Origin: Thermoplasmatales archaeon | GTDB taxonomy: Archaea; Thermoplasmatota; Thermoplasmata; Thermoplasmatales; Thermoplasmataceae | NCBI GenBank assembly: GCA_014874365.1 | Contig: JACWAH010000026.1 | Location: 1-64,000 of the forward strand | Direction of reading: 5' to 3' | DNA: 64,000 bases | Made by a program: the position numbers and the translations under genes | In this document: one piece after another, positions 23,655-31,035 of the stretch | Layout of the letters: every line of letters begins with the position of its first letter | How positions within the stretch are numbered: position 1 is the stretch's first letter | The notes under the pieces: model-generated | Told to the model about the DNA's origin: nothing | What the model saw: the letters and a program-made list of their open reading frames with translations, nothing else | Database searches by the model: none

Positions 23655-24982
23655 TAATCTTGGATTATGACGCAATTATCATTGGTGGAGGTCCTGGAGG
23701 ATATGCTAGCGCAATAAGGCTCGGGCAGAATTCCAAGAAAGTTGCCCTCATAGAAAAGGACAAGATTGGAGGAGAATGCCTTAATTATGGGTGCATTCCT
23801 TCCAAAGCCCTCATTGAAATGGCCAACTCAATAGGTTACCTGAAAGATCTTCCTGGAGTGAATCTGGTTCCTTCTATCGACCTGGAGAAATGGCAGAAAT
23901 GGAAATGGGAAATGATCAATAAACTTACTTCCGGCGTCGAGACCCTCTGCAAAGCTTACGGTGTAACGGTGATTAAAGGGGATGGAAAGATAGTTGACAG
24001 GAACACGGTAAGCGTTGCTGGAAAGAATATAACGGCAACAAATCTTGTAATTGCCACGGGATCTTCACCAGTAAAATTTCCTGCCTTTGAAGGAGTATCA
24101 TATAACAGGGAGATACTTGACATAACCAAACTTCCGAAAACGTTGCTAATAGTCGGAGGTGGTTACATAGGAATCGAGCTGGGGACTGCCATAGCCAAGC
24201 TTGGTTCAAAAGTCACAATCGTGGAAATGATGCCTGCCGTACTCCCGGGAGTGGAAAAGGAACTGGTAAATCCTGTGGAGAGAAAACTCAGGACGCTTGG
24301 AATCGATATATTCGTCAATACAAAGGTTGAGAAGATCCAGAGAAACGGGGAATCGTTTGACGCCGTCCTTTCAGGAGAGAAGAAAATTACTGTGGAGAAC
24401 GTGCTTGTCACTGTCGGCAGGAGGCCGAATACTGAAGGATTCGGATTGGAAAATATTGGCCCTGAAATGAATGGACGGTACATCAGGATTGATTCACACT
24501 GCGAAACTTCCATAAAAGGCGTTTATGCCCTGGGGGATGTATCAGGTGAACCCATGCTGGCACACAAGGCATTTTATCAGGCAGGAATTGTCGCTCAGAA
24601 CATATCCGGAAAGGATGCAGAGGTAGACTATCATTCGATGCCTTATGTCATATATTCGGACCCGGAAATAGCCTACACCGGGAAGAAAGGTACGAGAGAA
24701 ACCATATATCCACTTGCTGCAAACGGAAGGGCGCTTGGAATGAACTCTTCGCTCGGAACATACAGGATTTATTTCGACGATGATGGTACAGTTACTGGAG
24801 CAGGAATCGTTGCCCCGCATTCCTCAGAAATGATAAGCGAGTTGACTCTTTCTGTGGAAGCATCCCTGTCCGTGAACGATATTGCGCTAACGATACACCC
24901 GCATCCCACAGTATCTGAAGGAGTAATGGAATCGGCGGAGGGAGCCTTTGGAAAATCACTTCATTTCAAGTCCGGCCGTTGA
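23651..24982 (+). CDS. lpdA: Dihydrolipoamide dehydrogenase (E3)
   Basis: 443 residues. FAD-binding GGGPGGYASAIRLGQ opens the protein, the redox disulfide is GGECLNYGCIPSK (Cys43 and Cys48), the NAD-binding block is LLIVGGGYIGIELGTAIAKLG, and the dimer-domain His-Glu pair is in TIHPHPTVSEGVMES. It reoxidises dihydrolipoyl E2 with NAD+. The start is GTG 23651, overlapping the pdhC stop (GTGA); TTG 23660 is a less likely alternative. Its 3' end overlaps lipB by 35 bases. The Ala-rich interior and length match the family; nothing is missing. Confidence 0.96.
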   Translation: MIILDYDAIIIGGGPGGYASAIRLGQNSKKVALIEKDKIGGECLNYGCIPSKALIEMANSIGYLKDLPGVNLVPSIDLEKWQKWKWEMINKLTSGVETLCKAYGVTVIKGDGKIVDRNTVSVAGKNITATNLVIATGSSPVKFPAFEGVSYNREILDITKLPKTLLIVGGGYIGIELGTAIAKLGSKVTIVEMMPAVLPGVEKELVNPVERKLRTLGIDIFVNTKVEKIQRNGESFDAVLSGEKKITVENVLVTVGRRPNTEGFGLENIGPEMNGRYIRIDSHCETSIKGVYALGDVSGEPMLAHKAFYQAGIVAQNISGKDAEVDYHSMPYVIYSDPEIAYTGKKGTRETIYPLAANGRALGMNSSLGTYRIYFDDDGTVTGAGIVAPHSSEMISELTLSVEASLSVNDIALTIHPHPTVSEGVMESAEGAFGKSLHFKSGR

Positions 24983-25628
24983 TCTCGGTCTCCTGGAATA
25001 TGATAAAGCACTGACGCTACAGAAAAAGTTAGTTTCCGTAATCAAGAAAGGGATCCTGGAAAAGGCAATCATATTTGTCGAGCATCCTCCTGTATATACC
25101 ATTGGCAGGAAACCAGATCCGCAAAATTATGCAGGGATAGATCCAGTGGTAACTGAAAGGGGTGGCGACATTACGTACCATGGCCCGGGGCAGCTCGTAG
25201 TCTACCCCATAATGGATGTCAGGAGCGAAGGGAAGCTGGATATTCGTGCATTCGTGAACAGGATAATGGATACAGTGATCGAGACGCTTTCCGACCTTGG
25301 AATTCGTGCGGAGAAGGGAACTAATGAACCGGGAATCTGGGTCATGGGAAAGAAGATGGGATCTGTTGGAATCGCCATAGACGAGTTTGTTTCTTATCAC
25401 GGGATTTCGCTCAACATTTCAAGAGAGGTACTGGCAGGTTTCAGCAAGATACGCCCCTGCGGCATGGATGCTGCTGTGATGTCTTTCATGAACATTGAGA
25501 GAGAAGATATGATAAAAAGCCTTATGGCAAGATTTTCTTCTCATTTCGGGAATTACGTAATGGTTTCACTCCCGGATTTGAAAACCATTTTGTCAGGATT
25601 CCCTTCCGATTTCCCAGATGCTCTCTGA
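24948..25628 (+). CDS. lipB: Lipoyl(octanoyl) transferase
   Basis: 226 residues with the LipB core: RGGDITYHGPGQLVVYPIMD, then GKKMGSVGIAIDEFVSYHGI with the catalytic Lys near 136, and IRPCGMDAAV with the nucleophile Cys171. It moves octanoyl groups from a carrier to the lipoyl domain of E2, after which LipA adds sulfur. The start is taken as TTG 24948 inside the lpdA 3' end, because the next residues (VDLGLLEYDKALTLQ) match the family N-terminus and no ATG is available. It closes the operon and ends tail to tail, overlapping the cobalamin adenosyltransferase by 36 bases. Confidence 0.93.
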   Translation: MENHFISSPAVDLGLLEYDKALTLQKKLVSVIKKGILEKAIIFVEHPPVYTIGRKPDPQNYAGIDPVVTERGGDITYHGPGQLVVYPIMDVRSEGKLDIRAFVNRIMDTVIETLSDLGIRAEKGTNEPGIWVMGKKMGSVGIAIDEFVSYHGISLNISREVLAGFSKIRPCGMDAAVMSFMNIEREDMIKSLMARFSSHFGNYVMVSLPDLKTILSGFPSDFPDAL

Positions 25629-26132
25629 AATCCCTTTTCTCACGTTAGCCACAACTGACATCATAAAAAGCAAAGAGGATAGCCTGTTGAGATAGGACTG
25701 GATAGCCTTCGTTGTGTATACAGAACCTGCATATCTTACCACGACCCTCTCCAGGGTCCTGGCTGACGTTCTTGCCACATGCAGTATGGCTGATTCCGGC
25801 GATCCTCCCGGAATGACGAATAGCTTGATTTTGCCCGCTTCATGCCTGTACTGGATCGTACGATCCTCCAGCCATTTCGTCCTGTCTTCGGAAAGAGTTC
25901 TTTTCTTTCCGGCAGCAAGCATGTCTTCACCGATTGTAAAAAGATCGACCTGAGTCTCCTTCAGATCTGCAATAATGTCCTCCCACTTAATCACGGTGGA
26001 AGCGTACCCTATTACCGAGATCAGGGAATCGATTTCACCCTCAATCTCAACCAGCATGTCACCTTTGGAAATCCTTCCAAGTGAAGGGTTGTCAGTTTCC
26101 CCTGTGTCACCTTTCCTTGTAAACGTATTTAT
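25593..26132 (-). CDS. ATP:cob(I)alamin adenosyltransferase, PduO type, apparent ATA start
   Basis: The C-terminal signature YLNRLSSLLFMMSVVAN and the ARTSARTLERVVV helix identify the PduO family, which makes adenosylcobalamin. The first ATG (26057) would cut off the family's ATP-binding N-terminus. That N-terminus is present in frame just upstream: FTRKGDTGETDN and PSLGRISKGD. Going back, the only position that fits the family start is ATA 26132 (M-NTFTRKGD), which overlaps the TAA stop of alaX as ATAA, mirroring the ATGA overlaps elsewhere. This gives 179 residues, the normal length. A one-base change or error from ATG is the alternative. Confidence 0.87.
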   Translation of the reverse strand: MNTFTRKGDTGETDNPSLGRISKGDMLVEIEGEIDSLISVIGYASTVIKWEDIIADLKETQVDLFTIGEDMLAAGKKRTLSEDRTKWLEDRTIQYRHEAGKIKLFVIPGGSPESAILHVARTSARTLERVVVRYAGSVYTTKAIQSYLNRLSSLLFMMSVVANVRKGISESIWEIGRES

Positions 26133-26857
26133 GCACCTGCCGGAGGGATGGATATTACCATTCTCTTGTTGTTTCTCCCCTTGTTCTCGATTTTTACCAG
26201 AGATATTTCGCCTATTTCTGAGGTGTTTGCGACATGGGTACCGCCATCCGCCTGCCTGTCTACCCCTTCTATCTCAACAATTCTGATTGTATCCATCTTA
26301 AGCAGTAATTCTCTTCCCGGGACTGTTCTTGCAAGGTTCTCAATCCTCTTCGCCTCTTCTGCATCTATGAAGTATGAAATCACCTTGTGTTTTTCCTCAA
26401 TTACTTCATTGGTCTCCTTAATGATACTGTTGGCCAATTCAGGGTCCAGACTTTCCAGAGAAAAGTCCACTCTTGCACGATCTTCGTAGATCTGGCTCCC
26501 GGTTATCAGTCCGGCATATTCCGGATTCCTGTTTACTATTGCATCTATCAGATGTATGGCAGTATGGAACCTCATGTGCTGATATCTCCTTGGCCAGTTG
26601 ATCTCTCCAACAGTTTTCGCTTCATGACTTTCGCTTATGGAGTTGGTGATGTGAGCTATCCTGTCGTCTAATTTTCTTGTGTCTATTATATCGATTATTT
26701 TCCCGTCGACCATCAGCCTGCCTGTATCTCCCGGCTGTCCCCCGCCAGATGGGTAGAAAGCCGTGGAATCAAGAAATATGCCTTCCATTCCTGCATCAGT
26801 TATTACTGCTTCGAACCTCTTCAAATACGGGTCTTCCCAGAAGAGTTTTCTTGTCAT
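26129..26857 (-). CDS. AlaX-type alanyl-tRNA editing protein
   Basis: 242 residues homologous to the editing domain of alanyl-tRNA synthetase. Zinc and substrate sites: FHTAIHLIDAI (His-x3-His) and QADGGTHVANTSEIG, where the usual Cys of C-G-G-T-H is Asp, as in a subset of AlaX proteins. The N-terminal glycine-rich block DSTAFYPSGGGQPGDTGRL is present. It hydrolyses Ser or Gly wrongly attached to tRNA-Ala. It starts at ATG 26857. It is upstream of the cobalamin adenosyltransferase with a 4-base overlap. Confidence 0.93.
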   Translation of the reverse strand: MTRKLFWEDPYLKRFEAVITDAGMEGIFLDSTAFYPSGGGQPGDTGRLMVDGKIIDIIDTRKLDDRIAHITNSISESHEAKTVGEINWPRRYQHMRFHTAIHLIDAIVNRNPEYAGLITGSQIYEDRARVDFSLESLDPELANSIIKETNEVIEEKHKVISYFIDAEEAKRIENLARTVPGRELLLKMDTIRIVEIEGVDRQADGGTHVANTSEIGEISLVKIENKGRNNKRMVISIPPAGA

Positions 26858-29703: not shown

Positions 29704-30124
29704 ACTCAAAACTAAGTTCGGCTATTTTGGCAACGGATTCCTTCATATGATCCCATTTCACCATTTCCATTGCCTGTGCCGGTTTTACCCACTTGAACCT
29801 ATCATGTTCCATGTCCGGGTTGAAGGAAATGTCAACTTTGACAGAACAATGCACTTTAACCGCGAAAACGCTTTCCACATAATTCAATCCTGACTTTTGG
29901 AACTCAAACTTCCCAAGGCGGATTACTTCAAGCATTTTGTCTTCTGGGATGTTGCATTCTTCCAGGAGTTCACGATGCAGGCATTCCATTTCACTCTCGC
30001 TTTCCTCCATGTTCGCAGTGAGGTTCTCCCAGTATGACCTGGGTGGCGAATAGTGCAGCACTAGTACTTCCATTGAAGGATTATCCCTGTAAATCACGAG
30101 TTGAATTTTGTTTTTCTGGTTCAT
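29690..30124 (-). CDS. Nudix hydrolase
   Basis: 144 residues with a Nudix box ESEMECLHRELLEECNI: E-x7-R-E-x2-E-E is intact, while the leading Gly of the consensus is replaced (TANMEES). The preceding RSYWENLTANME and the WVKPAQAMEMV C-terminus resemble NudB-like dihydroneopterin triphosphate or dATP pyrophosphohydrolases. The substrate is uncertain. It overlaps the upstream SDR gene by 4 bases, so the two are probably coupled, and it converges on the methyltransferase gene. Confidence 0.87.
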   Translation of the reverse strand: MNQKNKIQLVIYRDNPSMEVLVLHYSPPRSYWENLTANMEESESEMECLHRELLEECNIPEDKMLEVIRLGKFEFQKSGLNYVESVFAVKVHCSVKVDISFNPDMEHDRFKWVKPAQAMEMVKWDHMKESVAKIAELSFESIPS

Positions 30125-31035
30125 ACGCCACGCCTTATTACGTCGGATAAGGCCGGCATCAATTCTGGAAATTTAAAACTGAAACCTAATTGCTTCAATT
30201 TAGAGGAGGAAATTTTCCCGCCTTTGAAAATAAGATCGGCACTCTTTCCGAATCTAAGCCTGATTACGAATGATGGAATAGGGATTGAAGAGGGCCTGTG
30301 CATGACAACTCCGAGAATATCTGTGAATTCACGGATTTGCGTTGGATTAGGAGATGATGCGTTAATGGATCCTGAATAAGAATCATTGGTGAGTGCTGCT
30401 ATGATCAGGTTTACTTCATCGTCCAGATGGATCCACGAGAACCATTGTGAGCCCGGCTTAACGAACCCGCCAAAATACCACCTGAATGTTGGGTATAACT
30501 GCTTTAAGGCGCCTCCGTTTGTTGACAGCACAACACTTGTCCTGATGTTTACTACCCTTATTCCGATCCTGGAAGCTTTGTTCGCTTCATCTTCCCACCT
30601 GGACACAAGGTCTCCCCAATAGTCCTTCCCGGCAGGAACGTCCTCGGTAAGTTCTGTTTCAGGAGAGTTATCGTAACCGTAATATCCAGTTGCGCTTCCG
30701 TTGATGAACACTGATGGGGGTTTTGGTAACCCGCTTATTACATTAACAAGATTTTTGACGAATCCCACTCTGCTGGATTCAACGTCCTTGCTCTTTTTGC
30801 TGAAGATTGGGGAACCTGTGAAATTCAATACTGCCCCAATTCCATCGAGGTCTTCAGATAATGATTCCAGCGATCCTATCTTTTTGTACACTGCACCCGG
30901 AACGTTTCTCCTCGCCTTGTCAATATTTCTCGCGAAAACAACCACCATGTACCCTTTCGCACACAGTGCCCTCCCTACTGCGGACCCAATTAGTCCGGTT
31001 CCGCCGAAGAGCGCTACTTTCTCGTTTACCAGCAT
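30121..31035 (-). CDS. NAD(P)-dependent epimerase-like protein, TIGR01777/YfcH family
   Basis: 304 residues. The N-terminal nucleotide-binding motif is FGGTGLIGSAVGRAL, and the family markers INGSATGYYGYDN and SWIHLDDEVNLIIAAL are present, with the C-terminal DUF1731-like region (VIRLRFGKSADLIFKGG). These extended SDR proteins are found widely, but their reaction is unknown. It starts at ATG 31035 after a 41-base gap from the NfeD-like gene on the same strand and overlaps the Nudix gene. Confidence 0.9.
   Translation of the reverse strand: MLVNEKVALFGGTGLIGSAVGRALCAKGYMVVVFARNIDKARRNVPGAVYKKIGSLESLSEDLDGIGAVLNFTGSPIFSKKSKDVESSRVGFVKNLVNVISGLPKPPSVFINGSATGYYGYDNSPETELTEDVPAGKDYWGDLVSRWEDEANKASRIGIRVVNIRTSVVLSTNGGALKQLYPTFRWYFGGFVKPGSQWFSWIHLDDEVNLIIAALTNDSYSGSINASSPNPTQIREFTDILGVVMHRPSSIPIPSFVIRLRFGKSADLIFKGGKISSSKLKQLGFSFKFPELMPALSDVIRRGV

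Follow-up and report, generated by a model that had tools for sequence, protein, structure and literature searches.

The two solved structures closest to the protein considered here, ST1454 (1woz) and TA0546 (1nog), are PduO-type ATP:cob(I)alamin adenosyltransferases, and both begin one residue before a conserved phenylalanine. Near-cognate start codons are rare in prokaryotes. CUG accounts for 0.024% of bacterial starts and has less than 1% of the efficiency of AUG (PMC11497404), and among 61,358 AUG starts in 36 groups of related prokaryotes two changes from AUG to CUG and one to AUU were recorded, with ACG being absent from the text of that study (PMC5622118). Published near-cognate counts rest on annotated starts, and a general under-annotation in archaea is possible. 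Our literature search found no direct archaeal precedent for starts at ACG or at other near-cognate codons, and, to our knowledge, ACG starts have hardly been recorded in this domain.

In this study, we examined a pduO-type gene in a 64,000-nucleotide window (the whole stretch of DNA that was analyzed) from the metagenome assembly of an uncultured Thermoplasmatales archaeon, a draft in 26 contigs whose genome is labeled G000. The predicted gene (25593..26126, minus strand) was delimited by its PF01923 match, its homologs and the start position in its relatives. It follows alaX (26129..26857, minus strand), which encodes an alanyl-tRNA editing protein-like product and was recognized from its open reading frame, matches to PF07973 and PF01411, and the gene order in same-genus relatives. 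On the other side, the 3' ends of pduO and the convergent lipB (24948-25628, plus strand) overlap by 36 bases (25593-25628). The pduO frame runs from an upstream stop at 26276-26274 to its closing stop at 25593, is open for ~47 codons upstream of the ACG discussed below, overlapping the alaX frame, and has no ATG, GTG or TTG between the upstream stop and its first ATG (26055..26057, minus strand). That ATG is internal to the gene, and its use would remove the ATP-binding motif. As the original prediction had held, and as frame reading and the PF01923 match confirmed, this ATG is preceded in frame by the ATP-binding N-terminus FTRKGDTGETD, so that a conserved N-terminus is present with no canonical start available for it. 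The Pfam match covers residues 4-161 of the ATA-to-stop translation and positions 2-170 of the 171 in the profile, its score of 134.6 bits (E 4.6e-39) clearly exceeding the cut-off of 24 bits, and FTRKGDTGETD corresponds to the family motif F/Y-T-x-x-GD-x-G-x-T as aligned with 28 relatives.

Comparison with homologs located the family start. Of 41 genomes of the order, 29 have a homolog of pduO, and three of these homologs come from the same genus and show 66-77% identity. The start was read from the bases preceding the conserved F/Y-T/S motif in those Thermoplasmata relatives, 28 in number, that had a readable 5' end (including L002, a Thermoplasmata MAG); two entries that are pieces of one broken pduO copy, L033 and L034, were left out of the count. 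The codon aligned with the window's ACG (26124..26126, minus strand) is ATG in 23 of these relatives and GTG in the other five. Residue 4 (F) of the ATA-to-stop translation aligns with residue 2 of both ST1454 and TA0546, and therefore ACG corresponds to the first residue of both structures. An ATA (26130..26132, minus strand) had been proposed as the only fitting start; it does share bases with the alaX TAA at 26131-26129, as claimed, but the ACG had been overlooked. After the ATA, the pduO frame reads AAT (26129-26127), ACG (26126-26124) and then TTT ACA AGG AAA GGT (F T R K G), within the sequence ...CCGGCAGGTGCATAAATACGTTTACAAGGAAAGGTGAC... Judged from the aligned sequences, the codon at the exact family start is thus ACG, two codons downstream of ATA, and a start at ATA would lengthen the protein by two residues absent from the relatives. 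In each of the three same-genus relatives, two bases separate an alaX-type stop from ATG, and the window has TAA, AT and ACG, with the alaX stop ending 2 nucleotides ahead of the ACG.

The position of the ribosome-binding signal agrees with this assignment. The 3' end of the 16S rRNA in G000 is ...GGATCACCTCC, which gives a Shine-Dalgarno (SD) consensus of GGAGGTGAT, and at unambiguous canonical starts common to G000 and its same-genus relative G003, SD matches peak at a register spacing of 3-5. A complementary AGGTG (26134..26138, minus strand) lies inside the end of alaX at a spacing of 5 to ACG and, counted identically, -1 to ATA, which is normal for ACG and too close for ATA. The family start position thus holds an ACG with an initiation signal at normal spacing. 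We consider it probable, at roughly 0.78, that pduO is translated from ACG 26126-26124 as part of a tolerance for near-cognate starts in the genus. In this mechanism, the AGGTG inside the end of alaX would place the 30S subunit at the ACG, ribosomes that finish alaX at its TAA, two bases before the ACG, would very likely help, and the ordinary initiator Met-tRNA (CAU) would start at a codon with one mismatch, in the middle position, and insert methionine, giving a predicted N-terminus of (M)FTRKGDTGETDNPSLGR. Co-transcription of alaX and pduO, their translational coupling, the insertion of methionine and production of the protein are what we infer from this arrangement. That the pduO gene is real and lacks a canonical start is firm; its ACG start is a well-supported prediction from sequence.

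A genome-wide comparison indicated that pduO is not an isolated case. We compared 1.454 of the 1.476 Mb of G000 (98.5%) with 0.98 Mb of G003, pairing stop-to-stop frames by reciprocal best hit and removing shadow frames, which left 747 pairs; the comparable gene pairs numbered ~730. Initial scans for start-less genes yielded too many shadow frames, shifted starts and stretches of promoter DNA to be useful and were replaced by a strict scan, in which one genome lacks ATG, GTG and TTG for a conserved N-terminus and the other has one, and by a second scan demanding a conserved SD at the same column. The strict scan flagged eight genes of G000 and ten of G003. On codon-level reading, the convincing cases in G000 were pduO (ACG), a presenilin-type protease (ACG) and purB (CTG), and those in G003 were a POR-domain subunit (ACG), a lumazine-synthase-type gene (CTG) and a Ta1207-family gene (ATC). 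The SD-based scan again picked out the protease, POR, lumazine-synthase-type and Ta1207 cases, and it added two genes with CTG, namely ABCE1 and a C19 gene. Some of these cases were judged by eye, and the comparison involves few genomes.

Several of these starts have informative counterparts. The presenilin/signal-peptide-peptidase-like protease (L063:19579-19581, G000:C4:39579-39581, plus strand; SD GGAAGGTGA) has ACG in G000, ATG in G003 and GTG in G001 and G002, all at the same distance from the SD. The ACG of the POR-domain subunit (L159:17569-17571, G003:C19, minus strand) stands behind the SD AGGAGGTGA and is ATG in the G000 ortholog, as is the ATC of the Ta1207-family gene (L144:18380-18382, G003:C26, minus strand; SD AGAGGTGAT), while the CTG of the lumazine/riboflavin-synthase-type gene (L171:9717-9719, G003:C15, plus strand; SD AGGTGAT) is GTG in G000. 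For purB, encoding adenylosuccinate lyase (CTG at L076:650-652, G000:C13:40650-40652, minus strand), G003 has TTG, and there is no canonical start upstream. In G000, transketolase-N (tkt) and arsB probably also start at ACG, judging from their sequences. Among these eight near-cognate starts (pduO, protease, purB, tkt and arsB in G000; POR, lumazine-synthase-type and Ta1207 in G003), five have an SD of at least 5 nucleotides, compared with 21% at canonical starts (binomial probability 0.012), and five either fall within the terminal part of an upstream gene or are no more than 25 nucleotides away from its end. These two features point to SD-placed, partly coupled initiation by Met-tRNAi.

Other candidates are less clear. 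ABCE1 (RLI) has CTG at the family start (L068:18297-18299, G000:C4:138297-138299, plus strand; also L178 and L180) in G000, G001 and G002, and TTG in G003, so that the CTG recurs in three species; only start codons were used for this gene, since the tail of the query after its first 30 residues was approximate and identities mean little. ABCE1, thiL and G000:C19:56343, all CTG cases, were kept as ambiguous because each has an in-frame GTG three codons upstream, within the SD. For a RIO-kinase gene (G000:C19:41982-41984, plus strand; G003:C7), both genomes lack a canonical start in the vicinity of the conserved N-terminus; in G000 a TTA stands at an SD spacing of 5, and in G003 it is close to the SD. 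A conserved gene (G000:C10, frame 29786-30890, plus strand; G003:C9) has ATT at an SD spacing of 5 in both genomes; its first TTG follows 3-5 codons later, and by sequence a start at ATT is possible. Start usage in G000 is relaxed in general. Only ~75% of 417 unambiguous shared starts in G000 are ATG, the remainder being GTG and TTG.

The alternative that fares best is a metagenome consensus error or strain polymorphism, with the true or majority pduO codon being ATG. We regard it as unlikely, even though ACG is one transition from ATG and the sequence is an assembled draft in 26 contigs; since all three congeners have ATG, a T-to-C error or strain variant is possible for pduO alone. Across ~222,000 aligned residues of each genome, however, no internal stop was found in either G000 or G003, and frameshift-like breaks numbered zero in G000 and one in G003. 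Nonsense targets were computed to outnumber start-loss targets by ~15 to 1, which with zero nonsense changes implies at most ~0.2 error-made start losses per genome. At least three such losses in a genome would have a probability of ~0.001, and three or more near-cognate starts were observed in each genome. Moreover, the other near-cognate starts have good SDs at correct spacing. Sequence error therefore does not explain the near-cognate set as a whole, an argument that supports the set and not each case.

Recent decay of pduO into a pseudogene, or translation of a short form beginning at ATG 26057, is quite improbable. That ATG does exist, and decay typically begins with a change such as the loss of an ATG, but the frame is otherwise intact and conserved, with no stop and with the within-genus identity noted above, and the SD has been retained. 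The short form would also be without the FTRKGDTGETD segment, which all relatives have.

Initiation at ATA 26132-26130, as in the original prediction, with its ATAA overlap with alaX and a protein two residues longer, has very little probability left. The codon lies in the pduO frame, shares bases with the alaX stop and differs from ATG by a single transition, but no relative starts there, and the register of the SD is one base too close. The prediction had also extended to a second conserved gene of the window and to a lineage initiating at AUA. Among the ~730 gene pairs of G000 and G003, which comprise genes with a counterpart in the 0.98 Mb of G003, none needs ATA as a start and no excess of ATA was found at conserved N-termini without a canonical start; the same applies to every window gene comparable with that part of G003. 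Where an ATA is opposite a relative's start codon, it adjoins an ATG or lies within the gene, among the cases listed. The broader idea of a lineage with unusual initiation stands in part: a conserved start-less gene is present and near-cognate starts recur as ACG, CTG and ATC, but the codon is not ATA. Weakest of all, and hardly credible, is a fusion of PduO to AlaX by ribosomal frameshifting near the end of alaX, which the overlapping open frames would allow, but the congeners have separate genes with ATG two bases past the alaX stop, and no slippery sequence was seen by eye.

Inspection of the initiation machinery, which had been suggested as a check on AUA initiation, gave no indication that it is altered. 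The tRNA set of G000 includes three CAU tRNAs, one of which is, by eye, an initiator candidate with A1-U72 and three G-C pairs in the anticodon stem, and one of which is probably the AUA-reading isoleucine tRNA. With a tRNA-Thr(CGT) in the set as well, internal ACG codons would be read as threonine, and neither the tRNA set nor aIF1 bore any sign of a recoded genome. The aIF1 (SUI1) of G000 is present, with the lowest score among the 30 genomes with a match; its loss, or an odd initiator tRNA, was ruled out as a cause, since aIF1 is encoded and the tRNA looks standard. According to in vitro work that PMC6237735 cites, archaeal aIF1 destabilizes complexes on non-AUG codons and stabilizes SD-bearing mRNAs, behavior that would fit a weak start kept workable by its SD.

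Returning to the ACG start of pduO, the wider proposal is that the genus tolerates near-cognate starts, mostly in SD-bearing genes. That this relaxed stringency involves ACG, CTG and ATC (possibly ATT and TTA) in up to ~1% of genes, mainly SD-bearing genes in operons and with ACG the commonest, is a reading to which we give slightly better than even odds. Should this be real, these genomes are being annotated with N-termini missing, catalytic motifs such as that of pduO among them, or with entire genes overlooked, since gene finders accept no start codons other than ATG, GTG and TTG. The genus would also offer a natural system in which to ask how a mismatch at the middle position is tolerated by archaeal initiation, with its aIF1, aIF2, Shine-Dalgarno and coupling. 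The approach of combining a conserved start column with a conserved Shine-Dalgarno is applicable to any group of related genomes.

The proposed starts resemble the rare near-cognate starts of prokaryotes (CUG, AUU) in that they too are single-mismatch relatives of AUG that would be read by the initiator tRNA, but they differ in occurring in an archaeon and in the prominence of ACG. Their rate of ~0.5-1% of comparable genes looks higher than that published, based on small counts that were obtained partly by eye and within this one genus. The arrangement at the window locus is like that of stop-start coupled, SD-led operon genes, with an AGGTG within the 3' end of the upstream gene and a stop and start 2 nucleotides apart; unlike in those genes, the start would be ACG, and coupling is a prediction from the arrangement. 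Finally, the predicted protein is similar to the PduO-type adenosyltransferases (PF01923; TA0546/1nog and ST1454/1woz) over its full length, in its N-terminal motif and in its start position, and it is set apart from its relatives, which start at ATG or GTG, by its proposed ACG start.
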